Below are positions 21,040 through 37,600 of a stretch of 45,156 nt of DNA, one piece after another (within the stretch, counting starts at the first letter, position 1; every line of letters starts with the position of its first letter). Origin of the DNA: Candidatus Cloacimonadota bacterium (GTDB taxonomy: Bacteria; Cloacimonadota; Cloacimonadia; Cloacimonadales; Cloacimonadaceae). The notes under the pieces are model-generated. The model searched no databases. It saw only the letters and a list, made by a program, of their open reading frames with translations, and had not been told where the DNA came from. The stretch covers positions 1 through 45,156 of the forward strand of contig JAJBAW010000021.1 of the NCBI GenBank assembly GCA_020532545.1, written 5' to 3'. A program made the position numbers and the translations under genes.

Positions 21040-21111
21040 AGTCAATTCCCTCACTATTGGAAGCACGTTGTTGGACGCACAACGTGGCATATTTGCTTTT
21101 TCATTTCATCT

Positions 21112-22044: not shown

Positions 22045-22130
22045 AGACACCTCTCTTATTCTTCATATCAGGACAATATCTTTGTTAGAAGCAAGGTATT
22101 CATTCACTAATTTTGTGGCAAGATATTTTT

Positions 22131-22352: not shown

Positions 22353-23066
22353 TCATTCCTTAATTCCTTTCACCATGTCCATCTCATCATATTTGAATAC
22401 GATCTCGATGCACCTGTCTCCTCTTATCTTATCTTCAGATGTAATCAGATGATTTTCGCCATACCCGCAGGCGAGTATTTTGTACTTATTTCTATCATTG
22501 GTGTGAATAAATACCCTCTCAAAAAAATGGGACCTTATCGCATCTGCTCTGCGTTGAGAGAGCGCATAATTTGAGTATTCATCACCATCCGTATTGGCAT
22601 GTCCTATAATGAGGATAGTGTAGGTTTCATAGCGTTTCTTTGATGAATCTTTACCGTCATTTTCATTGAGAAAGTCCTTGAGCACTCTTCCAAATTTTTG
22701 AACGGTTTCTACTGCAGAGGGTTCAAGTTGGGATATCATATAATGGTTATTTACTTTCCAGATCATGTTTTGGGAAAACACAATTACTGTATCTACCGCG
22801 GCATCGCTGCCCTTATCTTCCCTTTTTACCTCACGGATCATCTTGCTGAGATCAGGGTCTTGCTGCAGGATTTCGATCAATTTGTTTCTGTCCTTTTTCG
22901 CAGTTTCAGCGTATTTTGCCAGTTCTTGATATTTTTTTATCTCGGAATTCAAACGGACTGTATTCACAATGAAGACCATCAAAATGATGATGAGGAAGCA
23001 CAGAGATGCATCGGTGAAGACGGTCCAAACATTGAAGCTATTTTGTCTACGATCTCTTTGAAGCAT
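22353..23066 (-). CDS. MotB/ZorB-like protein with OmpA peptidoglycan-binding domain
   Basis: A 237-residue protein with a short cytoplasmic N-terminus. One TM (VFTDASLCFLIIILMVFIV) carries an Asp (about D19) near its cytoplasmic end, in the place of the proton-accepting Asp of MotB and ZorB. A coiled linker follows (about 45-85), then an OmpA-like domain with TILIIGHANTDGDEYSNYAL, SQRRADAIRSHF, GYGENHLI and DRCIEIVF. The product should anchor a channel to peptidoglycan. ATG 23066 overlaps the ZorA-like gene by 20 bases; an upstream TTG at 23102 is an alternative start. It is the last gene of the tubulin/Hsp70 operon. Confidence 0.87.
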   Translation of the reverse strand: MLQRDRRQNSFNVWTVFTDASLCFLIIILMVFIVNTVRLNSEIKKYQELAKYAETAKKDRNKLIEILQQDPDLSKMIREVKREDKGSDAAVDTVIVFSQNMIWKVNNHYMISQLEPSAVETVQKFGRVLKDFLNENDGKDSSKKRYETYTILIIGHANTDGDEYSNYALSQRRADAIRSHFFERVFIHTNDRNKYKILACGYGENHLITSEDKIRGDRCIEIVFKYDEMDMVKGIKE

Positions 23067-24510
23067 AGTGCACCGTGATTCCTTTGTTGATAATTTCTTC
23101 AAAGGCTCGCTTTAGATTCCCATCCAGCTGCCTTGTATTGGTGTTAAGTGTCGTAAGTAGGTTTTCCTGCTTGGGGAATGACTCTCCGATCTTATCGGTG
23201 GTTTCCCCCATCACTTTGGACAATTCCTTATAAGCATTCTTCATCTGCTCTCCGGATACACCCGCAAGGTCTGTAAAGGCTTTCAGCATACGGCTGTTTG
23301 CTAAATCCAGAATTCCCTGCAATTGTTTCTGGCCCTCTGCGGTGGAAGTTTCTATCATCTTCAACTGGCTATTGAAGCTTGCATTCACGCCTTCAAATAC
23401 GTCTTTCATGCCTTGCATCAGCCCATCTACATCCGTGATGATTTTTTCAACAAGGTTCTCGATCATAACCTGATTAGCACTATTCAGGTCGTATGCCTTT
23501 TTGTTCTGGTTGAGGTTCTCACTCATCACCATGCTTAGCTGATTAATCATCTCCGAAGGTTGAGTCTGCTGCGCGTGGAGATTACTGATCAGAGCAATTT
23601 GAGTGTGGAAGGCAGCGGAAAATTCGCCTATTTGATCAATCAGCTTTTCAGACAATGCAGCAAAATTATTCAAATTTTGCATCATGGATTTGATGTTTAC
23701 GCTGGATTGGTGTAGCTGGGAAATTGCAGAATTCCAGTTTTTCTTCACACTATCCAAAGATTTACGTTCCTCATTGAGCTTTTCAATCACGGCCTCAAGC
23801 TTAGCTTCATTGCTGGAGACCATCGTGAAGATCTGATCAGCACTATGTTTTATGATATCTTTAGACCACTCGGTGAACTTTTGGAAGGCAGCGTCCTGGG
23901 ATGCATTTACACTATTAATCCCATCTATGAAGGCAGTTTTGATACTTTGCGCAAGGTCTTTGAGATCCAGAGTTCTTTCACCACCATCTTTCATGAGAGT
24001 GGAAAACACCTGTTCCTTGGAATCCATAAAAATACTATCTATCCGTTTGTGGTTGAAACGCTGGCAGACATTTAAAAGGAGGGCTCCCAATAAGCCCAAA
24101 ACACTGGTCCCAAAAGCATAGGCAACTTGCCCGGTTAATTCACCAATTTCACCGCCGCCAGTCCCTGCGCCAATGGCATTCAAGAGATCCTTGAGTAAAC
24201 CTAATGATCCGGAAAGTCCCACAAAAGTTCCCAGCAGACCCAGGATACTCAAGCTGCCTATGATCAGGTTGATAAGACCTATATCAGGATCAAGACGGTT
24301 TTCCAGATCCATACGCAGATCATTTTCGATAAAGCTGGGAGAGACAGAACCCATTTTCAGGTAATATGAGGCCCGCTCTTGAACATAGCTGGACAAACTG
24401 AAGTTTTTGATACCTTCTCGTTGTTTGAACAGTATGGTGATCGCCCATACAATGGCTGCCAATAATAAGCCACTGATTAACAGCATTAATGCGATAACTA
24501 CAAATTGCAT
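23047..24510 (-). CDS. MotA/TolQ/ExbB (ZorA-like) channel protein with long coiled-coil tail
   Basis: A 487-residue inner-membrane protein. TM1 is at about 3-28, TM2 at about 77-100 and TM3 at about 128-149. TM2 and TM3 carry the family signatures LSILGLLGTFVGLSGSLGLL and GQVAYAFGTSVLGLLGALLL. About 330 residues of cytoplasmic coiled coil follow (for example around KLEAVIEKLNEERKSLDSVK). MotA, ExbB and TolQ lack such a tail; ZorA of Zorya defence systems has one. With the MotB-like gene it should form a proton-driven 5:2 stator-like motor. No zorC, zorD or zorE homologue is nearby; the partners are tubulin-like and Hsp70-like NTPases. Confidence 0.85.
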   Translation of the reverse strand: MQFVVIALMLLISGLLLAAIVWAITILFKQREGIKNFSLSSYVQERASYYLKMGSVSPSFIENDLRMDLENRLDPDIGLINLIIGSLSILGLLGTFVGLSGSLGLLKDLLNAIGAGTGGGEIGELTGQVAYAFGTSVLGLLGALLLNVCQRFNHKRIDSIFMDSKEQVFSTLMKDGGERTLDLKDLAQSIKTAFIDGINSVNASQDAAFQKFTEWSKDIIKHSADQIFTMVSSNEAKLEAVIEKLNEERKSLDSVKKNWNSAISQLHQSSVNIKSMMQNLNNFAALSEKLIDQIGEFSAAFHTQIALISNLHAQQTQPSEMINQLSMVMSENLNQNKKAYDLNSANQVMIENLVEKIITDVDGLMQGMKDVFEGVNASFNSQLKMIETSTAEGQKQLQGILDLANSRMLKAFTDLAGVSGEQMKNAYKELSKVMGETTDKIGESFPKQENLLTTLNTNTRQLDGNLKRAFEEIINKGITVHYASKRS

Positions 24511-24521
24511 AGTTTTGCTCC

Positions 24522-25868
24522 CTAACTACTTATTACGATGTCGGCTTTATAAATTATCAAACCAGAGCCTAGCCTTCTTAGCCCTGGGGAAAGCGTCTCA
24601 ACGCAAGCACCTCTGGCATAATCAGATTCACGCACGGATACAAAACGTGATTCTTTTGTGGAAACTATCGTATCAGGCTCAATGATGAACAACTCCAGAT
24701 CATACTTTGAGAGGGTTGCTTTCGCTTCGTTCTTCATTTGAGTCTGCCTTCGCTCTGATGAACTAAAAGCATAAAGGATTCTATCCATTATAACCAGGAG
24801 GATATCATCAAAGAGGTCTAAAGCGTAAGCCGAAACATCTTTGAGCTTTTTGGGAGGATTGGCATTCGGCCAATCTAAAAGTTTATTCAATTCGATTTCT
24901 GTTGCTTTGGAGAGAATAGCAGAGACAGTGTCTTCAATCTTCTTAATTGTAAGCCCAATTTCTTCTTTGCTAAAATCCAGTTTTTTGAGGTCTGACTCTA
25001 CAAAATGGAAGATTTTTGTCTGGAAAAGCTTCATGACGGATTCCTTTTTGCCGGCAGTACTCAATAGACTGATGCGCTCTTTATCTTGTTTATTCTCATT
25101 GAGGCCTAGTTTTTTGCGGAGATCATTGTAGCTTTCCTCTATCTTTTTAAGCCTGACAATATCCTGGAGCTCGAGCTCTTTTCGCTCTAATTCAGCGGAT
25201 AATCGGGCATTATCTCCTGTGAGTTTTCTAACTTCGGCTGTTAATGTTTTAACATCAAGCTCCGCTTGGTTTTTGTCTTCTTTCCGCTGTGATACTGCCT
25301 GAGACTGATAGAGCCTTGTGATGCAGAAGGCAGAGCCCTTGTCATCTCTCGCTATATCAATCTGGAAGGACCCAATATCAAGCTGAGCAAGTGCGGAGAA
25401 TAGATGTTCCTCGCTTACCTGACAAGTACTATGAAGCCACTTTGCTAACTTCCACAAACTGATCTTTTCAGGGATCAGATTATCCCTATCAACATCTTCA
25501 TATTTTGCGTGGTTGATTGTTACATTGTAAACAAATGGCTCAGTCCTATTTGCCTTACTTTGTTCATCTGCTTTGAACTGAAGTTTATAAGAATCTTTCG
25601 GTAAATGCAGCAGAACAGGGATGTCCGGCGGCGGACTCTCAGGTTTCAAGGAAATTAGCTCTTTCCATGATTCACCTTTAGTCTTGTATTTGATGCTGTC
25701 GGTATCAATCCTGACTTCAACTAAACCGGTATATTGGTTAAGTTTATTTTTTAACTCATCAAACAAAGCCGTATAATATGATCCTGCAGGAATCAGCTTT
25801 GAGAAGTCTTGAGAGCTTAGATCTTGAAAGGCTCCATTTTGGTATTTATAAATATCGTTACTTGACAT
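24522..25868 (-). CDS. Coiled-coil protein with GrpE-like C-terminal region
   Basis: A 448-residue soluble protein with no TM. The N-terminal part (1-190) is mixed alpha/beta and unrecognised. A coiled coil spans about 195-262 (VKTLTAEVRKLTGDNARLSA and on). Next come a helical section with KDVSAYALDLFDDILLVIMD and a C-terminal beta segment with GACVETLSPGLRRLG then SGLIIYKADIVIS. The order long helix, helical bundle and a V-x-x-x-L-x-PG...G...I-x-KAxVxVS wing resembles GrpE, the Hsp70 nucleotide exchange factor. An Hsp70-like ATPase is encoded three genes upstream. This match is by eye and needs a profile search. It overlaps the upstream gene by 11 bases. Confidence 0.62.
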   Translation of the reverse strand: MSSNDIYKYQNGAFQDLSSQDFSKLIPAGSYYTALFDELKNKLNQYTGLVEVRIDTDSIKYKTKGESWKELISLKPESPPPDIPVLLHLPKDSYKLQFKADEQSKANRTEPFVYNVTINHAKYEDVDRDNLIPEKISLWKLAKWLHSTCQVSEEHLFSALAQLDIGSFQIDIARDDKGSAFCITRLYQSQAVSQRKEDKNQAELDVKTLTAEVRKLTGDNARLSAELERKELELQDIVRLKKIEESYNDLRKKLGLNENKQDKERISLLSTAGKKESVMKLFQTKIFHFVESDLKKLDFSKEEIGLTIKKIEDTVSAILSKATEIELNKLLDWPNANPPKKLKDVSAYALDLFDDILLVIMDRILYAFSSSERRQTQMKNEAKATLSKYDLELFIIEPDTIVSTKESRFVSVRESDYARGACVETLSPGLRRLGSGLIIYKADIVISS

Positions 25869-26997
25869 CTACCAAAGCCTTTTCTATATGCTCACCAAGT
25901 TTGAAGCCGGGATAGATAACCTTCATTACGGTTTTGGTGTCCCCATATGCCTTGTCCTGCTCCATAAATTGTCGATCAAAACTGTCTCCAGGTTTTGGAG
26001 CAATGAGTTCCGTTTGATAACTTTTTAGAATGTCTGATAAGGCTATATAGGCAAGGCTCAATCGTTCAGGAGTATCAGATAAAGAGTGTAAGCCAAGGAT
26101 CTTCGAAGAATCGCGGATGAATTTTTGCATGGCTGCTTTCTGGTCGCCTGGATTAGAATCCAAAACATTTAGGGCTAAGCTTATAAGTTCATAATGCTCG
26201 CGGAAATGAATGCGGAGATTCAAGAAACGGGCATCAGTGGCAGAATCAATCTTATTCAGAACCTTTTGCGTGGTCTTACCAAGCTCCTCAAACTGAAGAT
26301 TCATCAGTGCTTGAAGCTCTTCAAGAGACTTTTGTGTATGCTCATTTTGAGTATCACTGCTTTTTGCAGAAGCCTTGATTTGTTCAACTTCTTTATTCAG
26401 ATTGTTCACTAAGTGCGCGAGCGCTCTGACACTATCGGTCAAATCTGATTTTTCTATAGCAGCTTTGATTGAAGTAAGGGCTTCTTGGACATCGCTTTCG
26501 TCGATGCGTTTATTTGTTCCTTTGCCTTGACTCGTTAAGAGCTCCTCCACAGTTTTTAATCCAGTCTTGATGCGCCCTATGTCAGAAGCATCTTTGGGGG
26601 CAAGAGCGAGATTGATGTTGTTCAGCAGTTGGTAGAGCAAGAATAACTGCGCCATCATCAAAAGTAAGACCCAGCCCATGAGAGCCAACAAATAATTTTT
26701 GCCTTGTTTTTTAAGCTTGGTGAGTATATTCTTTTGTTCCTGCAAGGCCTGGGCGTTATCGATTTCTGTACGCATTATAGATGCGATTAGTGTGCTATCC
26801 AACTTGCAGACGCTTTGGGGAGGTGTTTTGAGGTTCTCTTCAGGGATATCAGAAGTTTTCTTCGTTTCGGTTGAAACCTCTTCCTGCTTTGGTTCCTCAT
26901 TGGGAATCTCTTTGGTTTTCTTCTTGCAAGCCGAGAATGAAATGCCGAGAATCAGCAGAATAATGATTATTCTGGTATATGAATGGAATTGCTTCAT
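25858..26997 (-). CDS. Lipoprotein-like, two-segment membrane protein with cytoplasmic coiled coil
   Basis: A 379-residue protein with a lipoprotein-type signal (IIIILLILGISFSAC, Cys24 followed by KKK), a charged linker of about 75 residues and a TM segment (NYLLALMGWVLLLMMAQLFL, about 101-122). A helical region with predicted coiled coil follows (TSIKAAIEKSDLTDSVRALA; LAHLVNNLNKEVEQIKASAK). The C-terminal 120 residues are helical and unrecognised (RFLNLRIHFREHYELISLAL). ATG 26997 overlaps the upstream stop in ATGA, which fixes the start. The first 45 residues are almost identical to those of the upstream gene, coded by a 75-base perfect DNA repeat. Family unknown; probably a membrane scaffold of the operon's complex. 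Confidence 0.72.
   Translation of the reverse strand: MKQFHSYTRIIIILLILGISFSACKKKTKEIPNEEPKQEEVSTETKKTSDIPEENLKTPPQSVCKLDSTLIASIMRTEIDNAQALQEQKNILTKLKKQGKNYLLALMGWVLLLMMAQLFLLYQLLNNINLALAPKDASDIGRIKTGLKTVEELLTSQGKGTNKRIDESDVQEALTSIKAAIEKSDLTDSVRALAHLVNNLNKEVEQIKASAKSSDTQNEHTQKSLEELQALMNLQFEELGKTTQKVLNKIDSATDARFLNLRIHFREHYELISLALNVLDSNPGDQKAAMQKFIRDSSKILGLHSLSDTPERLSLAYIALSDILKSYQTELIAPKPGDSFDRQFMEQDKAYGDTKTVMKVIYPGFKLGEHIEKALVDVK
26868..26942. repeat. 75-bp perfect direct repeat, copy 1
   Basis: Identical to 27356-27430. It encodes the shared lipobox and charged linker of the two neighbouring lipoprotein-like genes. The flanks are similar but diverged, which points to a tandem gene duplication with later sequence exchange at this segment. 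Confidence 0.85.
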
Positions 26998-27554
26998 TTG
27001 TCCTCCCATTTCCAGGGTTTTTTAGGGGGAATACGCTCTTTGTCGTCTGGAGAAGATGGCTTGTTGGTTGGCCACACAAAGGCCTTGTTTTTAATAAAGA
27101 ATGTTTTCCAAGCCATGAGGGCCAAGATCACAGCAAGTATAATTACGGCAATCAACAATAGCAGATTGTGTGTTTTGATGCCTCGCTGAATAAGCGTAAT
27201 CTTCATAGATATGGAATCGGCTGGCATATATCTCTCCGGGGCCACCTGAATGTCTGATGGCACCATGGATGCTACATTCAAGCTATCCGGCTTTTCGGAA
27301 TTTTTGGAAAGTATTCGGGAACTATCTTCAGGAGCATCGAGTGTTTTCTTAGTTCCGGTTGAAACCTCTTCCTGCTTTGGTTCCTCATTGGGAATCTCTT
27401 TGGTTTTCTTCTTGCAAGCCGAGAATGAAAGGCTGAGTATTAGCAGAATAACGATTACAACGGTAGATGAAAGGATCCGGTTTATTTTCCCTCCCATTCC
27501 CATGGTTGTTTGAGTACTCTGCTCCCTTTGTTGCTTCATGAGATCATTAAACAT
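26994..27554 (-). CDS. Small lipoprotein-like membrane protein, paralogue of the downstream gene's N-terminus
   Basis: A protein of about 186 residues. A hydrophilic start (MFNDLMKQQREQSTQTT) is followed by a signal-type segment ending at a lipobox-like Cys (STVVIVILLILSLSFSAC, Cys about 47). Next come a charged linker, a second TM (LLLLIAVIILAVILALMAW, about 132-150) and a short basic, proline-rich tail (PPKKPWKWEDK). The segment SACKKKTKEIPNEEPKQEEV is identical to that of the next gene, whose long cytoplasmic coiled-coil domain this protein lacks. ATG 27554 has GGAG six bases upstream. Function unknown. Confidence 0.65.
   Translation of the reverse strand: MFNDLMKQQREQSTQTTMGMGGKINRILSSTVVIVILLILSLSFSACKKKTKEIPNEEPKQEEVSTGTKKTLDAPEDSSRILSKNSEKPDSLNVASMVPSDIQVAPERYMPADSISMKITLIQRGIKTHNLLLLIAVIILAVILALMAWKTFFIKNKAFVWPTNKPSSPDDKERIPPKKPWKWEDK
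27356..27430. repeat. 75-bp perfect direct repeat, copy 2
   Basis: Second copy of the repeat at 26868-26942, offset by 488 bases in the same orientation. Confidence 0.85.
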
Positions 27555-27610
27555 ATCTATCTCCATTGTTTGTGGTTGCGGGCATTGGCCATACTACTCT
27601 CACATTGTGC

Positions 27611-30229
27611 TTACTCGTGATCATAAACCTTCTCCCATTCAGTGCTTTGGGTATCACAGTCAACTTGAGAAAAATGCCATTTATAATAGATATTAAACCC
27701 ATGATATTTCATCTCAAGACGAGCTTGCTTAAACTTAATCCCCTTTGGCATAGGTATTTCGAAGGCCGGTAACTCTTCTGCGTCACTTTCGCTTACAAAC
27801 ACCTGCAATGGAGTTCTGAGCGGCACAGAGAACAGGTTTTTAGAGTCATCATTGATAGGGTAATGGTTTTCTTCTTCCATGTCCAGCCAGCGTTTAAAGA
27901 GGACTTCCCGCTTTCCTAAGGCCAGATATCGGTAAAATACAAACCGGCTTCGTCTTAAGCCCATGAACATAGTTCCGTCTCCTCTGGACCTGAATAAGTG
28001 TGCACCCAAGGCAACGGACGTCTTTACGGTGTCAATATCCAAGATTACTTGATCAGCTTTGCTAAATTCTTCTTCAGCATATTGTTTGAAAAGGGGGAGT
28101 CTACAGCTATTCCCGGCCAATATAAGAAAGTCCACAAGAGGAGTGTTTGTTTGCTTGTTTTCGAAGAGCTCTTGCATAACGGAATTTATCTGGCCAATTT
28201 GATCTTTAATGGTTCTGATTTCCGCGGCATCTTCGGATAAAGGTTCGGAAAAAACCTTAAAATAGGGGGACTTGGGGTCCAACTTTTGACCCTCGAATAC
28301 CTCAGTGATACTTTTCTTCCCTTGTTTGCTGGCTATTAGCCTGGAAAGATCAAGCTTCGCTTTCTCATAATAGGTGTACTTCTCCCGGAAGAAGTCTGCT
28401 TGGGGAGACTGGTCGAAAACCTGAGAATATGCATCAGGAAGCTTGTCGGCATCGGCCTTATCACACTTGGCCAGTGCGAAAGAGAGGTAAATGCCGCCAA
28501 ACTTCTCCGTGCCCCAAGATGCAACCACGTTGGTTATTGGGTCACCATTCTTGCTGGAATAATTGACAATGGCATAGTCTGTGGTTCCGCCCCCGCAGTC
28601 GAAGACCGCAATGGTCACATCTCCATGCTTGATAGCGTGATTTGTAACTTTTTCATGTTTATTTAGGTAATAGAAGGCAATGGCTTCCGGTTCCGTGATG
28701 CAAACATCCTCATTAACAAGATACCCCAAGGCCCTTATTTGATCAAAATACAAACGCTTGGTTTCTTTTCTGAATATAGCCGGATAGGTGGCTACTATTT
28801 CTTCTGGCTTTTTGCCAGTATGCGGCTCAAAATTACCAATTAGGTACCTAAGATAGATTCTGGTAAGTTCTACGGGGGTAAATGGTTTAAACTTGTCATA
28901 GCTGTCTTTGAACATATACTTTTGATTGGCGTGATTGAGCAACATGCTCTTAAAGTTTAGAGCCCGCTCTAGACCTTGCAAGACATCAGATTGAGGGAAA
29001 CTTAATAGATCGTTATCCCCTATTTCATCCATCTTGACAAAGTCTATCCTCGTCTTGTGTTCCAAGATATTCTCTGAATCTCCTGAAATGGGTATCGCTT
29101 CTCCTGATTCATCCACCACGCAGGAATTAGTAGTGCCAAAATCTATCACACCGAATCCCCCCTTAAAGGGCTGATTTATCACAGGGAAAGCAAAATGGAA
29201 GCGTTTTATGGGCTTGAAGGATAGGCTTCGGTTTGCTCTGATTTCCAGATCTATGGCAAAATCAAACTTACCCGCGTTACGCAAGTTCTCCTGCTCGACC
29301 GTAGTTAGCTTATTCGGAGTGTAGTGCAATTCTACGTTTAAATCCTCAGGGCTTTCAAACCTCATCTTGGGATTGACATTCAGACAAGGGCTTAGAGCTA
29401 CAATACGAAAAGAATGAAGATCTGAGCCCTCAATTCCATTCGGTGTCCTTTTGGGCCTCTCCAAACTAATTTTCACGCTGACATTCCCGAATGGAGAGTT
29501 AAGATTGGCAAGGTTGAAGTTTGTCTTGATGATTTCTTGCTCGTTGATGATCTTAAAATGGGGGATTTTATTGAATTCGAGCTGGATGGGAGTTTCCATA
29601 ATATTCTTATTCCCACTTATCATTCTCAGGGAAGCAGAAATGGGTTGCTCAGCACTATAGTATTTAGCAAGGTCCTCGAAGCTAAAGCTGTACTTGTTCG
29701 ATCTTTCTTTGGCCCTGATTACTATCTCCTGTACCTCCAATTCCAGCTTACAATCATGCAGCCCAGAATTCCCGCTGATGAGCTCGAGTTCAAAATCATC
29801 GTAAAGGCTGAAGCTGAGCAAGGAAGTCTTCTTGTTTCCAGAACAGAAGGGCTGGATGTCATAAAGCCCCTGAACCTTAAATATAATGCAAGCAGGGTCC
29901 AGAACATCAAAGCTGATCTCTTTTGAGGGGTACTCTGCGAAGTGTAGCCCCAAAACCTTACTGTTGAAGGCGGGGATTTCATTTATTGTCAAACAAATGA
30001 CATCCCCATTTTCAATAATCTGTTTTTCCGTGTTTATGGGGTGGTTTGAGTAGTCTGCTCCGGTAAAAGTAAGGGGAATCTGCCCTGATTTGCCGATTGT
30101 AATATCAAAAGGCACCCCCAGTATGACAAAAGCAGGTGGGTAGAGAGTGACGCCCATCTGATCTGTGCCGCACATAGGGCAGTACATAAAGTTATTACGG
30201 TTCTGATATGCACATTTGAGACACTGCAT
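27611..30229 (-). CDS. Zinc-ribbon Hsp70/actin-like ATPase
   Basis: An 872-residue cytoplasmic protein. The N-terminal zinc ribbon (C3, C6, C17, C20; CLKCAYQNRNNFMYCPMCG) is followed by about 320 residues of beta-rich sequence. The ASKHA ATPase core then has phosphate 1 motif VIDFGTTNSCVVDESG (about 361-376), connect-type EPEAIAFYYL (about 513-522), phosphate 2 VFDCGGGTTDYAI (about 542-554) and adenosine motif LILAGNSCRLPLF (about 730). There is no DnaK-type substrate domain or lid; the tail of about 110 residues is beta-rich. The extra domains therefore sit in front of the ATPase, the reverse of DnaK. It lies 12 bases after the tubulin-like gene, and a GrpE-like partner is encoded downstream. 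Confidence 0.88.
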   Translation of the reverse strand: MQCLKCAYQNRNNFMYCPMCGTDQMGVTLYPPAFVILGVPFDITIGKSGQIPLTFTGADYSNHPINTEKQIIENGDVICLTINEIPAFNSKVLGLHFAEYPSKEISFDVLDPACIIFKVQGLYDIQPFCSGNKKTSLLSFSLYDDFELELISGNSGLHDCKLELEVQEIVIRAKERSNKYSFSFEDLAKYYSAEQPISASLRMISGNKNIMETPIQLEFNKIPHFKIINEQEIIKTNFNLANLNSPFGNVSVKISLERPKRTPNGIEGSDLHSFRIVALSPCLNVNPKMRFESPEDLNVELHYTPNKLTTVEQENLRNAGKFDFAIDLEIRANRSLSFKPIKRFHFAFPVINQPFKGGFGVIDFGTTNSCVVDESGEAIPISGDSENILEHKTRIDFVKMDEIGDNDLLSFPQSDVLQGLERALNFKSMLLNHANQKYMFKDSYDKFKPFTPVELTRIYLRYLIGNFEPHTGKKPEEIVATYPAIFRKETKRLYFDQIRALGYLVNEDVCITEPEAIAFYYLNKHEKVTNHAIKHGDVTIAVFDCGGGTTDYAIVNYSSKNGDPITNVVASWGTEKFGGIYLSFALAKCDKADADKLPDAYSQVFDQSPQADFFREKYTYYEKAKLDLSRLIASKQGKKSITEVFEGQKLDPKSPYFKVFSEPLSEDAAEIRTIKDQIGQINSVMQELFENKQTNTPLVDFLILAGNSCRLPLFKQYAEEEFSKADQVILDIDTVKTSVALGAHLFRSRGDGTMFMGLRRSRFVFYRYLALGKREVLFKRWLDMEEENHYPINDDSKNLFSVPLRTPLQVFVSESDAEELPAFEIPMPKGIKFKQARLEMKYHGFNIYYKWHFSQVDCDTQSTEWEKVYDHE

Positions 30230-30241
30230 GCTATTACCTAT

Positions 30242-33200
30242 TTATGGATTACGGGTCTTAGTTACCAGTATGCCATTAACAAACTCACTGGTATAATAAT
30301 CGAGGCGCTGGTAATCTTGCGGATTAAATTCCTGATTGTATAAGTCGTCAATATACTTAGCCATGTCCTTTTCTTCAGGGTACTCAATTGCCATTTTCTG
30401 TTTAAGCTGGGCTTCAATCATATCCCGGATTCTTTCCATAGCCCATGTACCCATAGTTGTAGAATTGGGAGCAACCGCGCTCATGTTAAGCTGTCGGAGG
30501 TTCAGGGTTACAGCACCAATCAGGTTACGAAGTTGTTTCACCGATAGTTCATCGAGCTCTGCATCTTGTTTTATTCTCTCGAGAACATGGGCATAATTTG
30601 GCTGAAGAAGCTCGTCTGCAATAGTTTCAATCTGCTTTAGTAAATCCTGATATATATCTATGCCCCTTTCTTTGTAGCAATAGCGGAATCTCCATTCACT
30701 CTGATTGTTGCTTAGTTCTATTTTTTCATAGGAGATCACCCCTAAAAGCAGGGCTTTCATAGCGGTGAGGTAAGAGCTGCTAAACTCCTTAAACTGATTA
30801 TCATCCATACATTTCAAGGTTCTGAGATGCTCAAAGTCTTTGGTAGTATAGCGCTGATAGATTTTACCCGGGTTTTTGGAAATGTCCGTATAATAGGCAG
30901 ATCTCAGAGTTTCCACATGGGTAAGAGCCACAAGCGGGAAACCGCTTCCCTCTTTGAAGAATACGATGCTTTCATCCAGATTGCTACGGTTGAATCCGAC
31001 ACCCCCGCCTAAGATACCGTCAAGCATATTGATAAGTGGATCGCTAGCTTTAGCATTGATACCATTCACAGGTATTTCTTCAGACTGCATGTTGCTTTTC
31101 ACATCGGGATTGGAAATGAAGTTTAGCCTCATAGAAGATTGTTCATATACTTTTCTAATATATTGTTCCAGTTCAGCTCTATGTACAGTATTATTTAGCA
31201 GCTTCAGCAACTCAGTGTCCACGGTTCTATCGTTTATAAAACTGCCAAAAACGTCTGCTGCGCATTCTTCCAGCAGTGCCTTGAGATCCATACTGTCGCT
31301 TTGCAAAAGCGTCTGGTGATTGGCCAAGGCATAGACAAAGAGCATGGAAGGTGATTGTCCCAAAGAGTGATCATCCAGTTTGTTTGCCAATTTGTTCTTC
31401 AGTTGTTGTGCCAGAGTAGCCAAGAAGTTCTCATAGCCTCCACCTTGTTCCTTTTGAACAATCATGTCAAGATCTTGCTTGATTTCTGCTTCCAGGTAGT
31501 TGTCCAAAACAAGTTTTCTTTGGGCTGCAATAGCTCCCTTGAATTCAAAGGCTTTGGCATACTCTTCAAATTCTAACTTCCAATCTCTTAGGGCCATGGA
31601 AGCCATATTGTGCTCATTGTTGCTAAGTGTATCAACCGTATGCTCGATAAGCGCAAGAGATGTATCAAAGCCTTGGCAAATAATTCCATAGCAATTTGAA
31701 ATTAAGAGTTGTTTTAACTGGTTTTCATGATCGCCAGCATAGGCTTCAATGGCCTTTTTTAGTTGGCTGGTATATTTTGCCTGAGCCCCTTCCAAATTGT
31801 TCTGATAATGCCGTTCAGCCTTTTTCCGGTAACCCACAAAGAATAGCGGAATGTCACTTGCTTCTCTGGCATAGTTTTGAATATCCTGGATATTTGTCGC
31901 ATCAGGTAGCTCGAGGTCTTCTGGGGCCCGATAGATAAAATCTCCCGGTGCTTTATTTCGCAAATAGTTCTTCATCAGGGTAATTCTATTTTTCCTGATT
32001 TCTTCCAGAAGTCTTTTAGCCGATCCGACTCCATCCTGTGCTATTGCTCCTAATACTTTGTAATAGAGATTTATAAGCCCTAGAGGTAGGTCTTTCATTA
32101 CTTGGCTTAGGTTGTTTTGCAAGCTTGAAATGATCTCACCCTTATAGTTAGTATCGTCACAGGTTTCTCGCTGTACCAACTCGCGTGTCTCGGCAAAAAA
32201 GGCATCTAATTCTGCGGAGATTTTCAGTTTTATACTATCTATTTTATGGAAATTACCATTTCTTACATCCGGCATTTCCAAGAGCTGCTGCACTTTGTTG
32301 GCCCGTTTGCGGGTAATATCCTGCATCATATCATCTATAGGAGACACTCCAGAGGCGCCTGTTTCAAGCATATTCCAAAGCTTCTCAGGGTCCAGGAGAT
32401 CGTATTTGATATTTCCACTCTTATCAGTGTATAAAGATTCATCCACAGCACTTGAGCTGGACAAAGCTTCACAAAAAGAGGCTAAGAACTTATATTTAGC
32501 CCAGTTCTTGATTCTACGTTTATTGAACTCGATTAGACCCAAGCCCAGGCCTGTGTAAGTGGTGGAATAAGCATTGGATATCTTCCTGTTCCCGTTTTTA
32601 GCGTTCTGGCTTATCACGTTCACAAAGTGGAATTTATTGTTGTAGCCTTTGATCACATTTGTTCGCGCTGATCTCACATCTGCATCGAACCCAGTGTCGT
32701 TGTAACCCAAAATCAAATATTCGGCCACTATGTTAAAAGCTTCTTCCAAGGAAGGTTCTATTTGCCCATTTTCATAGGTGTTACTCACCAGATTTACTTT
32801 GTTGTATATCGGCAAGGTAACTGAGTGGCTGAGGTTTGGCTTCCAGGAAAAATCGAAAAGATTCTTGTTTTTTTGTTTAATCTGCTGGTTCTCAGGGGTC
32901 ATGTAAAAATCAAGCTCCTGCAGAGCGGCAAAGCAATTTGCATCCCGCTCTGTCTGAGATCCCTTAACCGGGGTTGCTTTATCATGGGCAAAAACATCTG
33001 AGAGGAGAAATATGCCGGTAGGGTTGAGATCAGCATCTATTTTTTGTAGCATGGCTCCGATATCTATCACCATTCCCGAACCGGTTCCTCCTGCCAAAGA
33101 GCCAATCACATAAACGTCAATATCTTTTGCAGAAGAAAGATTGTCAATTTTGAAATTTGGGTTTTTAAGCTTGGTTATGGCATTGGAGATACTGGCATAG

Positions 33201-33652
33201 ATACTATCTGCATGATACCAAAAAGCCAGCTTACCAAAGGGCCTCATGGCACTGGCACCTTGCTGAAGTACAGTCGCTCCCATATCCTTCAAAGCATTAA
33301 AATTGAACCAATGGTGATAGCTTGTAAAGTTATTGAAACTGTCGTAAAAACTTTGTAGGTCTTTGACACTCAGAGATACATCAACCTTCTCGCTTTTACT
33401 GAGCTGGGCATGAGAAAAAGTCTTATCGAAGTTGGCATTGCGGATATTAGTATTCCTGCTATCGGTGTCAATCCAAAGGTATTCAATGTAGGGATGATTT
33501 TCAAGACCGTCATAGATATTTGCCAGTTTTCTGCGGAACCGCATTACCACTTCTTTCCCACTACCTCCGATTCCGATCATCAGAGTTCTTTTCTTTTGAA
33601 CAGAAGCACTGTCCTTTACATTGTCCTTTCCTGAAAAATAAAAATCAGCCAT
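30242..33652 (-). CDS. Tubulin/FtsZ-like GTPase (Tubulin_2-type), 1136 residues
   Basis: The N-terminal 350 residues show a tubulin-fold GTPase: loop T1 RTLMIGIGGSGKEVVMRFR (about 22-40), YLWIDTDSR (about 58-66) at the T2 position, and the signature VIGSLAGGTGSGMVIDIGAM (GGTGSG about 188-193). I could not place the T7 catalytic loop NxDxxD. About 780 residues of mainly helical sequence follow, far longer than FtsZ or TubZ and unlike anything I recognise. No signal peptide or TM. AAGGAGG precedes ATG 33652, which overlaps the upstream gene by eight bases. It belongs to the FtsZ-like families predicted to act in membrane remodelling with vWA and OmpA-type partners, and is the core of this operon. 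Confidence 0.88.
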   Translation of the reverse strand: MADFYFSGKDNVKDSASVQKKRTLMIGIGGSGKEVVMRFRRKLANIYDGLENHPYIEYLWIDTDSRNTNIRNANFDKTFSHAQLSKSEKVDVSLSVKDLQSFYDSFNNFTSYHHWFNFNALKDMGATVLQQGASAMRPFGKLAFWYHADSIYASISNAITKLKNPNFKIDNLSSAKDIDVYVIGSLAGGTGSGMVIDIGAMLQKIDADLNPTGIFLLSDVFAHDKATPVKGSQTERDANCFAALQELDFYMTPENQQIKQKNKNLFDFSWKPNLSHSVTLPIYNKVNLVSNTYENGQIEPSLEEAFNIVAEYLILGYNDTGFDADVRSARTNVIKGYNNKFHFVNVISQNAKNGNRKISNAYSTTYTGLGLGLIEFNKRRIKNWAKYKFLASFCEALSSSSAVDESLYTDKSGNIKYDLLDPEKLWNMLETGASGVSPIDDMMQDITRKRANKVQQLLEMPDVRNGNFHKIDSIKLKISAELDAFFAETRELVQRETCDDTNYKGEIISSLQNNLSQVMKDLPLGLINLYYKVLGAIAQDGVGSAKRLLEEIRKNRITLMKNYLRNKAPGDFIYRAPEDLELPDATNIQDIQNYAREASDIPLFFVGYRKKAERHYQNNLEGAQAKYTSQLKKAIEAYAGDHENQLKQLLISNCYGIICQGFDTSLALIEHTVDTLSNNEHNMASMALRDWKLEFEEYAKAFEFKGAIAAQRKLVLDNYLEAEIKQDLDMIVQKEQGGGYENFLATLAQQLKNKLANKLDDHSLGQSPSMLFVYALANHQTLLQSDSMDLKALLEECAADVFGSFINDRTVDTELLKLLNNTVHRAELEQYIRKVYEQSSMRLNFISNPDVKSNMQSEEIPVNGINAKASDPLINMLDGILGGGVGFNRSNLDESIVFFKEGSGFPLVALTHVETLRSAYYTDISKNPGKIYQRYTTKDFEHLRTLKCMDDNQFKEFSSSYLTAMKALLLGVISYEKIELSNNQSEWRFRYCYKERGIDIYQDLLKQIETIADELLQPNYAHVLERIKQDAELDELSVKQLRNLIGAVTLNLRQLNMSAVAPNSTTMGTWAMERIRDMIEAQLKQKMAIEYPEEKDMAKYIDDLYNQEFNPQDYQRLDYYTSEFVNGILVTKTRNP

Positions 33653-34085
33653 TTTGTCCTCCTTGCTTGTTGTTGCTACTTCTTTTGTAGGGACTTATGA
33701 TCAGATATATTGCAATCCATGCTACTACAATAACGGCAATTCGTATTATGGAGCCAATGAGATGATCTCCGATATGATAAAAATCAATATTAATAACATC
33801 AATCCCAATCAGGATCAGGAATATCAGACCCACCCAGGTGAGCCAGAATATAAGGCAGCTGGCTGCTGCAGATTGCGGAGAGTAATTGCTTTCGAGATAG
33901 TTCATGAATTTCTTGTTCAAAATATGATAATGCAGCAGGATGGCAAGAATCAAGCCCACGATAGCCATATAAACCAAGGGGACTCTTTGGCCAGAGCTTT
34001 CTGACGCAACAGGTTCCTGTGCCCATAGGCATCCCAAGAGTGATAATGCAACAATAAAAGTGATGACAACTTTTTTTACAGACAT
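33645..34085 (-). CDS. Small membrane protein with signal/lipobox and three TM segments
   Basis: A protein of about 146 residues. The N-terminal signal (VVITFIVALSLLGCLWA-QE) could be cut as a lipoprotein at LLGC or by signal peptidase I after LWA. Three TM segments follow (VPLVYMAIVGLILAILLHY; CLIFWLTWVGLIFLILIGI; SIIRIAVIVVAWIAIYLII) and a basic tail. No family recognised. ATG 34085 has AAGGAG six bases upstream; the open frame upstream of it has no such site. Tight packing with both neighbours marks it as a likely membrane subunit of the complex. Confidence 0.7.
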   Translation of the reverse strand: MSVKKVVITFIVALSLLGCLWAQEPVASESSGQRVPLVYMAIVGLILAILLHYHILNKKFMNYLESNYSPQSAAASCLIFWLTWVGLIFLILIGIDVINIDFYHIGDHLIGSIIRIAVIVVAWIAIYLIISPYKRSSNNKQGGQNG

Positions 34086-34102
34086 GATGATCTCCTTATC
34101 AT

Positions 34103-35686
34103 TCAAGTATAGATGTATCTTATTGTAATCTGACAGGTGTAGTCTTGATTGTGCAATTCATAATTTATACCCGGTAGAATGGTATGGGTGGATTCAAATT
34201 TGGAATGCCCTGTGAGCTGCCATCCATTGTCCAGGATGCTCAGCCTGACTCTACTTTTATTTGTGATCTTGAAAACTTGCGACTGCGACTTATAGTTATC
34301 GCGCGGAACGATACTATGCTCCTCTTGATCTTCATAAATGACAATGCCCCGCACACTAACAAACTGAATAAAAGTGTAGCCAAGGATAAAGAGGAGTGCC
34401 ACAATGCCCAAAAAGCTCAGGATGATTAGAGTTTCATGGGTGGACCTGATGGCGATTGTAGATTCAGGTCTCTTTTTATCGTTTAAGTTCTGCACGGAGA
34501 GTGCGATCTTGTTTGAGTAAGGGTTGATGAAAGAGAGAAGATCGTTTTTACTGTATATCTTGTCCAGGATCAAAGGGTTCTCCGTGAAGTATTCGCTTTC
34601 AAAACCCGGAGTAAGACTCAAACCATTTTCTTGTGCTTCCAGCAGAATATCGAAGCTGACCTGTATGTTAGGACGCAGGAAAACCAGCTTGAATTCCTGC
34701 CAAAGAGTGGGTTCAGGTTTAACTGTTATCACTCCCTTGAAGGATTGAGTCACCCCATCTGGGTTCAGGTCGTTGAGGAGCCTTGTGGGGCTAATGCTGC
34801 TACTTGCTTTTATGGGGATATGCTCTCCGGAATCGTTCACTATCTTAAGATTCACGATTTTTACTTTTGTGTCCTTCTTAAGATAGAAATGGTCGTATTG
34901 AGAAGATAGGTCAAAACTGAAGGCAATATCATTGGGCTTGCCAGTGGAAATTGATCTGGCGAGCTGCATTTTCTGGTTTTTGGTGAGGATGTATTTTTGG
35001 TCTTCAGATTGCAAGGTATAACCCGAATCAGCTTCCTTTGGCCTACCAATTTTAAGATGATCTGCTGTGATGGGGAAAAAGTGTAAGAGTTCCAGACCAT
35101 CTTTTCGCAAACGATCCCCCAAATCTTTGTAACGATCGTAATTATCTTCGTAGATCACCATATAGGCCATCATGCCCCGATTGCCTTTATAGTAGCTCTG
35201 ACCACTTACATAGGGCTTACCAGAAAATGACCGAATTAGTGGTATTACACTAAGCTGCCGCATTGTTTCTGTATTCTGAATGCTGTGGTAAAACCGATCA
35301 GTACTGATCTCTCCGGTGCTGTTGTCTACATTATCTGTTATGAAAATCACAGCAGGATGTTTGGTACTGTATTCGATCAAAGGGACATCCAATACGGTAT
35401 ACTTTCCATAGAAAGTTGAGGAACTAAGCTGTCCTAAAGAAGGTAGGGCCTCATAGCTGATGTTTTTCTTATCGGCTACACAATAAAAGAGAGTAGTCGA
35501 ACTGCTGAGCCCTGATTCTGATATTGCCGACTGAAAGAGTTCCAGTACTTGTTGGATACTGCCGGTTTCTGCAAAGCCACGCATACTTCCACTGCCATCT
35601 ACCAATATCGCTATATCGTTGGCCAGCAGAGCAGAACAAGCAATAAACAAGACAATGGCAAGCAGAGTAATCTTAAGTTTATTCAT
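34103..35686 (-). CDS. Membrane-anchored vWA domain protein
   Basis: A 527-residue protein with a signal peptide (MNKLKITLLAIVLFIACSAL-LA) and a von Willebrand A domain with an intact MIDAS start, IAILVDGSGSMRGF (D30-x-S32-x-S34). The downstream acidic loop is HPAVIFITDNVDNST. A beta-rich region follows, then one TM (LIILSFLGIVALLFILGYTF, about 420-440) and a cytoplasmic tail of about 85 residues. The vWA domain is therefore predicted outside the inner membrane, with the tail facing the tubulin- and Hsp70-like proteins. ATG 35686 lies four bases after the upstream stop; the open frame to 35782 lies inside the upstream gene. vWA proteins usually mediate metal-dependent protein contacts. Confidence 0.85.
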   Translation of the reverse strand: MNKLKITLLAIVLFIACSALLANDIAILVDGSGSMRGFAETGSIQQVLELFQSAISESGLSSSTTLFYCVADKKNISYEALPSLGQLSSSTFYGKYTVLDVPLIEYSTKHPAVIFITDNVDNSTGEISTDRFYHSIQNTETMRQLSVIPLIRSFSGKPYVSGQSYYKGNRGMMAYMVIYEDNYDRYKDLGDRLRKDGLELLHFFPITADHLKIGRPKEADSGYTLQSEDQKYILTKNQKMQLARSISTGKPNDIAFSFDLSSQYDHFYLKKDTKVKIVNLKIVNDSGEHIPIKASSSISPTRLLNDLNPDGVTQSFKGVITVKPEPTLWQEFKLVFLRPNIQVSFDILLEAQENGLSLTPGFESEYFTENPLILDKIYSKNDLLSFINPYSNKIALSVQNLNDKKRPESTIAIRSTHETLIILSFLGIVALLFILGYTFIQFVSVRGIVIYEDQEEHSIVPRDNYKSQSQVFKITNKSRVRLSILDNGWQLTGHSKFESTHTILPGINYELHNQDYTCQITIRYIYT

Positions 35687-35690
35687 TGTG

Positions 35691-36854
35691 TTATCCCATA
35701 TATATTGTTGCAGTTTGGATGCCTTGAGTGAGAGCAAACAAGTGATTGTCCAAAACCGAATATGCAATAAGTGGATCGGCAAAACCTGCAGAAATCGATT
35801 GTTGATTGAGCCATAAATCCATTATTGCGATATAGTCTTTTTGAATGTGTGTTACTGGCACACACATGGCTATGCCATTTGCGCTTATGCTGGGGCAGTG
35901 ATTCCCAAGGTTAATACTGGTAAGTGTTGCGTCCGGATCTTCAGTATAATTTGGCATATCCCAGCGGGAAAGTGTGGCACCAGCCAGCACATAGAGCAGG
36001 TTTTTTACAAAAAACACCCGAACAATAGGCTCCGGCATATCCCATTTATAGTTGGGGGCCTGGTTTGAGCGAAGTCCCGGAAGCCTTCCTACGTAGATGG
36101 TTCTCTGATTGAGACCCAAAACATAGTATTTTTGCCCCAAAGATAGAAGCGTTTGGGCTTTAACGCCATCCCATTCGCAATCCAAGATAATCTCTTGGCC
36201 CATCTTCATGTGGTCGAACATTTCATTTGCCCGAAGAGCTATTTGCCCAGATTCAGTGGTGCTGGCAATGATCATATTATCCCCACACGTGGCCAATGCC
36301 AATAGAATCTCTGAGGCTGGGGCATTAAAGAGCTCTTGAGAATCAGTGCCTTGAATCTTCATCACACATTTTTCGGTGATAAGGTAGGTATACTTATCTC
36401 TAAGGATATCTACTACCTTATCCGGACAATTGATCAGTGTGGCTTCTGCTTTCAGGCTGATCAGATCGACCCAGTCCAATACATACAATTGATGGCCTGA
36501 ATGAATGTAGATGAATCTATTGTCGGTCAGCATTTTTTTAATGGGCTGCTTAGCAGATGAGAGCTTGAAAGAGTGAACTGCTGGCTTAGAATTCCCTGAG
36601 TCGAAAATATACTGTATAAGGTGGGCTTGCCGATCCTCAGTAAGCACAAAGAGATGAGAATCGAAAAGAGAGAAGAATGCAGACTTAAGATTCATAGAAT
36701 CGAATTCATGCAGGCTTCTAAAAGGTTCGTTTGGGTTGAATTTTATCTGATCCCATGAAAGCTCTGTGTACTTTCGGTCAATAACCTTGCCACAGCGATT
36801 ACAATAGTAATTGCACACTGGTTGTTCATGACCTGAACTACAAATGTTTAGCAT
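35691..36854 (-). CDS. Zinc-ribbon beta-propeller-like protein, first gene of the tubulin/Hsp70 operon
   Basis: A 387-residue protein. The N-terminus MLNICSSGHEQPVCNYYCNR then CGK is a zinc ribbon of the C-x3-GH...C-x2-C type. The remainder alternates short beta strands that look like propeller blades (HLFVLTEDRQAHLIQYIF; RFIYIHSGHQLYVLDWV; KYYVLGLNQRTIYVGRLPG; LLYVLAGATLSRWDMPN). No signal peptide or TM. ATG 36854, right before the ribbon, has GAGAG just upstream; the frame stays open to 36959 but that extension shows no domain. The Hsp70-like protein of the same operon has a similar N-terminal ribbon. It may be an adaptor or sensor subunit. Confidence 0.75.
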   Translation of the reverse strand: MLNICSSGHEQPVCNYYCNRCGKVIDRKYTELSWDQIKFNPNEPFRSLHEFDSMNLKSAFFSLFDSHLFVLTEDRQAHLIQYIFDSGNSKPAVHSFKLSSAKQPIKKMLTDNRFIYIHSGHQLYVLDWVDLISLKAEATLINCPDKVVDILRDKYTYLITEKCVMKIQGTDSQELFNAPASEILLALATCGDNMIIASTTESGQIALRANEMFDHMKMGQEIILDCEWDGVKAQTLLSLGQKYYVLGLNQRTIYVGRLPGLRSNQAPNYKWDMPEPIVRVFFVKNLLYVLAGATLSRWDMPNYTEDPDATLTSINLGNHCPSISANGIAMCVPVTHIQKDYIAIMDLWLNQQSISAGFADPLIAYSVLDNHLFALTQGIQTATIYMG

Positions 36855-37600
36855 ACTCTCTCTTGTTAATAAAAAATCTGGCACTACATTCTCGTCACAC
36901 ATATTTAAAACCATCCAAGCTCCAATATCTTGATGCACGCATACAAGAAGATAGTGCAAATTATGTCAAGGTAAAAAAGATTTTATGTCAGAATGTCTGC
37001 ATGCACAAAGGTTTACTGGTAGCGGTAGTGCATCATTATAAACTTTGAGTAGCTTACTGGAGAGCCCATGATACATCATTTTTGATAGTATAGTAATCAA
37101 AACCATGTTCAACCTGTCAGGGCGTTCTTTAATTATATCTCGATCAGCAAAGATGTGAATGACTTATGGCTAAATTATTTTGCAATTCCCATGCAGTCAT
37201 TGATTATATTCTTTAACTTTCAACCGATACCTGTTTTGACTTGTCTTTTTGATTTGCCAAGAAAGCTACAGCAATTCTCCTTCTTTGTTCCCTGGCAAAC
37301 TCGTTAGATATTATCCTCTCAGCCAAAATTGAGAGTTATCACAGGAACATCACTGCATTAAGATGCCAAACTTTCCGACCGCCACAGTCCTTGTTTTAAC
37401 CCTAAATCGCCCCAGGTAAATGTGAAACAAGCTGGCAGGAGAGAAGATATAGGATATGAGTAGCGGGTATAGCAGATGCGGGAAGGATCGATTTAAGGTC
37501 AAAACAAGCGGAGCTAGATCTAATGCAGCCTGGCAAGAAAAGTCATGATAAGGTCAAAACAAAAGGCTTGGATCTCAAGACATTCAGGACGGCTCCCCCT
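36855..37600. other. Gene-free upstream region of the large operon
   Basis: AT-rich, with no ORF of protein character. On the minus strand a TTGACA (complement of 36964-36969) with a weak TTGTAT hexamer 17 bases downstream is a possible promoter for the operon. At 37490-37590 there is an imperfect direct repeat of the word AAGGTCAAAACAA. Confidence 0.3.

Follow-up and report, generated by a model that had tools for sequence, protein, structure and literature searches.

Operons of the tubulin-like GTPase family FtsZl1, in which vWA, OmpA, GTPase and kinase genes are neighbours, have been proposed to act in membrane remodelling (Makarova and Koonin, 2010; PMC2875224). Nostoc sp. PCC 7120 is one of the species aligned in Figure 1 of that paper, whose main text does not contain the words Hsp70, DnaK, GrpE, MotA and ExbB. 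The corresponding family Tubulin_2 is treated as divergent in PMC9871819. Tubulin and Hsp70/GrpE have also been described as variable parts of predicted GTPase-centric conflict systems, where they are called non-overlapping themes built on DO-GTPase/GAP1 and where the words MotA, ExbB and TolQ are absent from the main text (Kaur et al., 2020; PMC7159879). Zorya defence depends on ion flow, on the tail of ZorA and on the peptidoglycan domain of ZorB (PMC11890865), and vWA proteins are found with TolQ-type motors (PMC12204202). Among open-licence papers, a literature search found none that combines Tubulin_2 with either MotA/ZorA or Hsp70 and a motor, and no report of a tested Tubulin_2 function. 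The present analysis concerns a ten-gene operon (g1 to g10) on a 45,156-nucleotide stretch of Candidatus Cloacimonadota bacterium (assembly GCA_020532545.1, contig JAJBAW010000021.1), the whole of which is referred to as the window. The operon encodes a Tubulin_2 GTPase, an Hsp70-like ATPase, GrpE-like domains and a predicted ZorAB-type ion motor. Nearly the same gene set recurs in a second phylum, which makes it probable that the products work as one envelope-spanning machine.

The ten-gene operon and its relatives

Ten long open reading frames (ORFs), all on the minus strand, were found to tile positions 22353-36959 of the window, contig 20 in a host assembly comprising 154 contigs and 3.04 Mb. 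As called mechanically, these ORFs are spaced by -92 to +44 bases, with the two largest overlaps between g1 and g2 (92 bases) and between g9 and g10 (56 bases). Most of the large overlaps vanish if in-frame ATGs which fit the relatives are adopted as the likely starts of g1 (36854), g2 (35686) and g10 (23066), resulting in an operon span of 22353-36854. The G+C content of the operon is 42% compared with 46–47% for the remaining window. The original prediction of a single packed transcription unit is supported by this tiling and spacing as well as by the conserved gene order described below.

The tubulin was detected (E 1e-10) in four of 124 Cloacimonadota genomes, namely in four of the 12 belonging to one genus and in none of the 112 others. 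Genome G042 possesses all ten genes in the same order, with 26–55% protein identity to the window, and G038 possesses nine of the ten in order, without g6; the set is thus more than a chance assembly. In G038, blastp identities of 24–40% were obtained for g2, g3, g4, g5, g7 and g9, and identities of 19–24% in multiple alignments for g1, g8 (there a 695-aa gene) and g10, the profiles matching G038 g1 and g10 having contained those same G038 rows. The copy in G039 is ended by a contig edge and retains g3, g4, g5 and g7. As the tubulin of G042 is 55% identical to that of the window and those of G038 and G039 only 26–27%, this one genus holds two strongly divergent versions of the operon. Outside the Cloacimonadota, G124 (a Sericytochromatia metagenome-assembled genome of another phylum) encodes in order propeller-like, vWA, tubulin, Hsp70, three GrpE-like, MotA-like (639 aa) and OmpA (222 aa) proteins, and lacks g3 and g6. 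Its tubulin was found by tblastn and the remaining genes first by ORF reading, and G124 rows are included in several of the profiles used. From the placement of Sericytochromatia we take its phylum to be Cyanobacteriota. A search for the Hsp70-like gene in 386 genomes of this phylum (limit 1e-60, two candidates scored per genome) returned G124 only, and one genome-contig scan returned three loci only, its two patterns being narrow.

Homologues lying mostly apart had been named beforehand as the outcome that would speak against the operon. Instead, in all five loci the gene immediately after the tubulin gene is the Hsp70-like one, and the motor pair belongs to the same operon in each of the four Hsp70-type loci that are not truncated by the end of a contig. 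The five Hsp70-type rows also form one clade of the tubulin tree, with a Shimodaira-Hasegawa-like approximate likelihood ratio support of 98 at full length, and support of 100/97 on the N-terminal 430 aa when seven rows are left out. It is therefore regarded as highly probable that the ten genes constitute one functional unit.

The encoded proteins

The 1136-aa product of g4 (30242..33652) matches Tubulin_2 (PF13809) at E 9.4e-46, with 157 bits against a curated cut-off of 27, and its two GTP-binding glycine loops, G(I/L)GGSGK and AGGTGSG, are intact in all five Hsp70-type tubulin copies, so that the tubulin assignment is borne out. The adjacent g5 (27611..30229) encodes a zinc ribbon and a beta region together with an Hsp70/actin-fold ATPase domain, for which a match to HSP70 (PF00012, E 2.3e-11, profile positions 88-369 of 599) and a profile match to DnaK in the PDB (1dkg, E 4.6e-18) were obtained. 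The loops IDFGT, FDxGGGTTD and GNS, presumably the phosphate and adenosine loops of Hsp70, are intact in all five Hsp70-like copies, in which C3, C6, C17 and C20 of the N-terminal four-cysteine ribbon are likewise invariant. The Hsp70 assignment is upheld by these matches and loops for the ATPase part; no C-terminal substrate-binding domain was matched by Pfam, and this half of the protein is unseen because the match stops at position 369. A search of plasmid records with g5 gave only three matches, two of them annotated dnaK and one unannotated.

The last two genes of the operon encode the predicted motor. The product of g9 (23047..24510), a channel subunit with a long predicted cytoplasmic tail, matches MotA_ExbB (PF01618, E 2.8e-6), and that of g10 (22353..23102), with one membrane helix and an OmpA domain, matches PF00691 at E 4.1e-10 (40.3 bits, above cut-off). 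PADLOC identified g10 as ZorB (4.7e-13) and g9 as ZorA (1.4e-6), the NCBIfam ZorA score of g9 being 17.9 bits and thus far under the 190-bit cut-off. When profiles, each built from eight sequences including that of the window, were compared with the PDB, the top chains were ZorA 8vvn_C for g9 (1.2e-14) and ZorB 8vvn_B for g10 (6e-21), both from the type I ZorAB of Shewanella (8VVN). All eight aligned rows retain the ion-site Asp in the g10 membrane helix as well as Thr and Ser in the channel of g9. The MotA/MotB assignment proposed at the outset is supported by these results, and g9 and g10 are accordingly predicted to be the subunits of a ZorAB-type 5:2 ion motor.

Between the ATPase and the motor lie the GrpE-like genes. 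The product of g7 (25858..27009) is a membrane-tethered coiled coil with a GrpE-like C-terminal domain. Its Pfam match to GrpE (PF01025) is at E 0.0055, with 16.8 bits and thus under the cut-off of 25.8; the G039 copy of g7 reached 0.063 and five other relatives scanned had no GrpE match. When seven g7-type C-terminal parts were compared by hhalign with 11 genuine GrpE proteins of Cloacimonadota, the C-terminal domain of GrpE was matched at 91.2% (E 1e-6), whereas six other profiles reached only 0.1–1.7%. In a Foldseek search of the PDB with the g7 model, ranks 1 and 2 among the best 50 of 275 matches were Thermus thermophilus GrpE (3a6m, E 7e-3, probability 0.94) and the third match was at E 0.1. 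Residues 261-383 of this AlphaFold2 model have a predicted local distance difference test (pLDDT) score of 67–89 by blocks of ten. The soluble product of g8 (24522..25868) has a C-terminus homologous to that of g7 (hhalign 95.2%, E 2.9e-8), and G124 carries three consecutive g7-type proteins. The GrpE likeness suggested in the original prediction is thus supported, with the correction that two proteins of the operon and not one bear the domain. A second, divergent GrpE (3.1e-14) was observed in another Cloacimonadota family, at G058:C223:329-718.

The remaining products are envelope or accessory proteins. The small g6 (26994..27566) encodes a lipoprotein-like protein with two transmembrane stretches, and its N-terminus shares with that of g7 a near-identical lipoprotein-like stretch of ~30 aa, as if by recent duplication. 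It is 33% identical over 140 aa to a gene of G042, and no counterpart was seen in the G038 or G124 loci. A zinc-ribbon and beta-rich protein is encoded by g1 (35691..36959), which has relatives in the corresponding position of the G042, G038 and G124 loci. It carries zinc-ribbon-like cysteines, its G124 relative matches zinc-ribbon models at 0.0016–0.14 (under cut-off), and a beta-propeller fold is no more than a guess. The product of g2 (34103..35782) has a signal peptide and one C-terminal transmembrane helix, and contains the motifs DGSGS and ITDN, which we take to be of the metal ion-dependent adhesion site (MIDAS) type; the columns of D62, S64 and S66 are invariant in four of four sequences. 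Its AlphaFold2 model (mean pLDDT 74) has an N-terminal domain of alternating strands and helices (block means 62–93), followed by beta domains, a transmembrane helix (452-475) and a C-terminus predicted with low confidence. It is likely, judging from motifs and model, that g2 is a vWA-like protein. The vWA and zinc-ribbon parts of the original prediction are therefore upheld by motifs, relatives and the g2 model and left without a family assignment, as Pfam gave none for g1 or g2 even at E 1. By hhalign, g2 reached 0.1–0.2% with the genes at the equivalent place in cyanobacteria and Deinococcus, and its search of plasmid records gave no match. The small membrane protein g3 (33645..34106) has four transmembrane-like stretches by hydropathy and homologues in G042, G038 and G039; in Deinococcus a gene of 108–109 aa occupies its place, a likeness by position alone. 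Sequence profiles of g1, g2, g4 and g8 gave nothing useful against the PDB.

The wider Tubulin_2 family and the surroundings of the operon

In the phylum of G124, Tubulin_2 was found in 58 of 339 genomes, at 69 or more places (E 1e-10, at most two candidates scored per genome). Forty stretches were examined, hand-picked to take mostly the best-scoring and then a spread; of the 68 places that do not belong to G124, they take in 41. A MotA-like gene and an OmpA gene were present on the strand of the tubulin in 19 of the 40 stretches (in L084 the OmpA gene lies ~4 kb further on and is cut). Three of the 19 had served in building the profiles; hold-out profiles, with no Deinococcus row and no row of this phylum except G124, identified OmpA in 19/19 and MotA in 17/19 (missing L048 and L066). 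A profile of the 19 MotA-like proteins matched 8vvn first in the PDB (2e-12), with ZorA 8qyd at 6e-7. No Hsp70 gene stands beside the tubulin in any of the 40 stretches, one of which has an Hsp70-like ORF 3.7 kb off. The motor-type tubulins of this phylum cluster in a clade of their own together with one motorless row (L061), and the Deinococcus row has too long a branch to be placed on the tree.

Tubulin matches were also obtained in ten plasmid records, nine of which were inspected (a second Azospirillum record was left out). Four Deinococcus plasmids (L087, L115, L117 and L118) have the motor layout, three Thermales plasmids have brxL, and one Azospirillum and one Cylindrospermopsis plasmid have neither. 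On all four Deinococcus plasmids the MotA-like and OmpA genes were found side by side after the tubulin by the hold-out profiles, only one of the four motor genes being annotated as MotA. In L115, the only one profiled further along, the OmpA gene is followed by LRV/DUF2336 and kinase-SH3-beta-helix genes. The original prediction had counted the motor among the additions peculiar to the Hsp70 version, and this does not hold, since tubulin, MotA and OmpA genes occur without an adjacent Hsp70 gene in the 19 stretches and on the four Deinococcus plasmids. The addition of the present lineage is the Hsp70/GrpE module with its zinc-ribbon genes. The Thermales plasmids L086, L116 and L119 (of Allomeiothermus, Thermus and Meiothermus) share the order vWA, Tubulin_2, a ~680-aa gene and brxL. 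No tubulin relative was confirmed in viral contigs (0 of 27 pattern matches), and the tubulin search of phage records gave only one unannotated fragment of 9.8 kb. As further observations on the plasmids, the operon of L087 adjoins an AAA / DUF2357-PD-(D/E)XK nuclease pair, IS630 adjoins the tubulin gene of L117, an insertion sequence precedes brxL in Allomeiothermus, RecQ-family helicases lie near the vWA-to-brxL gene set in L086 and L116, and DUF1156 and HEPN genes near that of L119.

In the window, a candidate promoter (TTCACA-16-TATAAT, 37132..37159, minus strand) was located upstream of g1 by a consensus scan, with 11 of 12 positions matching; it is considered weak, as 41 such sites were found compared with 34.9 expected. 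Approximately 300 bases downstream of the operon, genes for a PARG-type glycohydrolase, a NadR-like protein and PnuC form an NAD/ADP-ribose trio (19406-22050, minus strand), the PARG gene being present in two of the 12 genus genomes and in a second copy in the host genome. Candidate defence or regulatory genes lie some kb from the operon, namely those for RhuM (16430-17452, PADLOC PDC-S05, 4.7e-146), an AAA protein (12773-14098, PDC-S27, 1.1e-43) and an HTH-IrrE protein (41478-42542, RmrA, 1.6e-26). A clean insertion site was sought by means of two operon-flanking genes in the 11 other genomes of the genus and none was found. Homologues of the flanking 820-aa gene were present in four of these genomes and of the flanking PARG gene in one; G040 has both, but on separate contigs. 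None of the window genes matches, at E 1e-5, the genes on either side of the G042 and G038 copies. Beside the G042 operon (L010, 5226-6134, minus strand) lies a gene that reads FIYVAGGNFIMGD and resembles a formylglycine-generating-enzyme domain, and ~1.3 kb beyond the G038 operon (L008, 16033-19386, minus strand) are a TnsB-like transposase gene and a smaller ATPase-like gene.

Possible function and comparison with known systems

Taken together, the data suggest that the operon may encode a peptidoglycan-anchored, ion-driven envelope switch which controls a tubulin-like assembly and serves in conflict, a reading to which, as a whole chain, a probability of about 0.4 is given. A periplasmic vWA domain of g2 and the OmpA domain of g10 would sense a disturbance of the envelope or peptidoglycan. 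This would unlock ion flow and turn the long cytoplasmic tail of g9, which would drive or release the assembly of the GTPase g4 at the membrane. The Hsp70-like g5 would act as a nucleotide-dependent loading or disassembly switch for g4, with the GrpE-like proteins resetting g5 by nucleotide exchange and holding it at the motor. The output would most likely be a conflict response, directed against phage or some other invader, and not a part of cell division or housekeeping. The motor and Hsp70/GrpE chemistry as stated is considered likely, and the chances that tubulin assembly is controlled by the motor and Hsp70 are roughly even. The conflict role itself might equally well hold or fail. It is favoured by the patchy distribution (four of 12 genus genomes, none of 112 others) with two divergent versions in one genus, by the Thermales plasmids of three genera in which tubulin relatives precede brxL, and by the classing of tubulin and Hsp70/GrpE as conflict-system parts in the text of PMC7159879. 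A bolder version, in which a tubulin-fold polymer is under the mechanical control of an ion-driven rotary motor anchored to peptidoglycan and the actin-fold Hsp70 and the membrane-bound GrpE-like factors serve as clutch, appears rather unlikely. If true, one trans-envelope device would couple the two cytoskeletal folds with ion motive force, and no described device with such a coupling was found in the literature search.

Several observations weigh against the envelope switch. Searches of the ten genes with Pfam, PADLOC and NCBIfam revealed neither a nuclease nor any other killing domain, and this, together with the wide motor-type family, weakens the case for conflict. As T6-H7 was not confidently identified in the FtsZl1 family, going by the text of PMC2875224, Tubulin_2 may not polymerise. 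The g7 model has a mean pLDDT of 57 and no Foldseek match at E ≤0.001, and its GrpE match has a low TM-score, which is attributed to the poor folding of the rest of the model; the sequence profile of g7 retrieved coiled-coil chains and no GrpE from the PDB. Direct comparison of g8 with GrpE by hhalign gave only 0.1%, so that its kinship to GrpE runs via g7. The hhalign value of g2 with three Thermales vWA proteins is only 23.5% and, in the absence of a Pfam match, its vWA nature is likely rather than established. As regards the motor, the hold-out MotA profile also matches an unrelated long ORF in L072 far from the tubulin, and designed coiled coils rank high with the 19-protein MotA-like profile, coiled-coil tails inflating some scores. 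Pfam MotA_ExbB reaches E 0.01 in only six of 23 motor subunits and misses the one Deinococcus subunit scanned (L115).

In the phylum of G124 the motor-type operon is common (19 of the 40 hand-picked stretches), which leaves room there for housekeeping. The operon could accordingly serve in housekeeping or stress remodelling of the envelope, with the motor pulling or turning the envelope, the tubulin-like protein shaping the inner membrane, and no part in conflict. This is possible though somewhat doubtful. FtsZl1/vWA/OmpA operons were proposed to have such a role in the text of PMC2875224, motor-type tubulins of the G124 phylum cluster together (with motorless L061), and an OmpA domain and transmembrane-bearing genes suit an envelope function. 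However, occurrence in four of 12 genomes of a genus, deep divergence within it and unmatched flanks are unusual for housekeeping genes, and the plasmid and brxL settings in Thermales also speak for something else.

An unlikely explanation is a Zorya-like anti-phage system in which the place of the nuclease and helicase effectors is taken by the tubulin, Hsp70 and GrpE-like proteins. ZorA and ZorB are the best matches of the two motor subunits and the window contains further candidate defence genes outside the operon, but the likeness may reflect no more than common motor ancestry, and the ten proteins include no recognisable DNA-targeting part and no PADLOC match to ZorC, ZorD or ZorE, which are likewise missing, at E 1e-5, among the PADLOC matches listed for seven flanking window proteins. 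That a tubulin-motor operon and an Hsp70/GrpE operon are merely neighbours by chance is very improbable. Tubulin-motor units without Hsp70 are indeed known in the G124 phylum, and tubulin and Hsp70/GrpE are non-overlapping themes in the text of PMC7159879; yet the Hsp70 and GrpE-like genes stand between the tubulin and motor genes in all four fully seen loci, in two phyla.

The observation that many Tubulin_2 proteins are accompanied by a ZorAB-type ion motor, and that one lineage present in two phyla has an Hsp70/GrpE pair in addition, provides a concrete mechanism which can be broken at the motor residues, the ATPase residues or the exchange factor. Should the parts be coupled, a single envelope device would combine ion flow with an actin-fold switch and a tubulin-fold assembly, and motor-linked tubulins as a group would then be candidates for a role in the defence or remodelling of the envelope. 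The simpler vWA-tubulin-MotA-OmpA version is found in a phylum with culturable, manipulable members.

The described systems each resemble the operon in part. With the predicted GTPase-centric systems of GAP1-N2 type, as far as the text of PMC7159879 describes them, it shares the tubulin and (here probable) vWA theme, the Hsp70 and GrpE theme, zinc ribbons and a membrane setting, and these systems include an Hsp70 without the peptide-binding domain, as in g5. Unlike in those systems, tubulin and Hsp70/GrpE are united here in one operon, and Pfam matched no GTPase other than the tubulin in the ten genes, no DO-GTPase or GAP1 model having been searched. Zorya is the best analogy for g9 and g10, since ion flow, the ZorA tail and peptidoglycan binding matter there according to the text of PMC11890865. 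Among solved structures, ZorA and ZorB are the best matches of the two motor subunits, which have the ion-site residues, a long ZorA-type tail and a peptidoglycan-binding ZorB-type domain. In contrast to Zorya, the partners of the motor are tubulin, Hsp70 and GrpE-like proteins, and the PADLOC ZorA match (1.4e-6) is modest. The operon thus appears to fall outside both the GTPase-centric systems (no P-loop GTPase found) and Zorya (no effector match). The pairing of vWA proteins with TolQ-type motors in the text of PMC12204202 makes the association of vWA proteins with 5:2 motors a further lead. As in the DnaK/GrpE pair, ATPase-domain loops and a GrpE-like domain are encoded together in one operon. 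Unlike in that pair, g5 has no matched substrate-binding domain and has an N-terminal zinc ribbon and a long extra region, and the GrpE-like domain is membrane-tethered in g7 and duplicated in g8.

The closest resemblance is to the FtsZl1 operons, whose vWA and OmpA neighbours and proposed role in membrane remodelling, cited in the original prediction, are confirmed in the text of PMC2875224. A PF13809 tubulin, a neighbour that is here probably vWA-like, an OmpA-domain gene and uncharacterised membrane genes in a single operon are common to both. No P-loop GTPase or protein kinase, which are frequent though not universal FtsZl1 neighbours, was matched by Pfam among the ten genes. Unlike in the operons of PMC2875224, as presented in its text, the OmpA gene here is the MotB/ZorB subunit and has a MotA/ZorA partner. 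Judged by its sequence, the operon fits the FtsZl1 type with two additions, namely a motor which is widespread and an Hsp70/GrpE module which, among the loci sampled, is confined to one tubulin clade.

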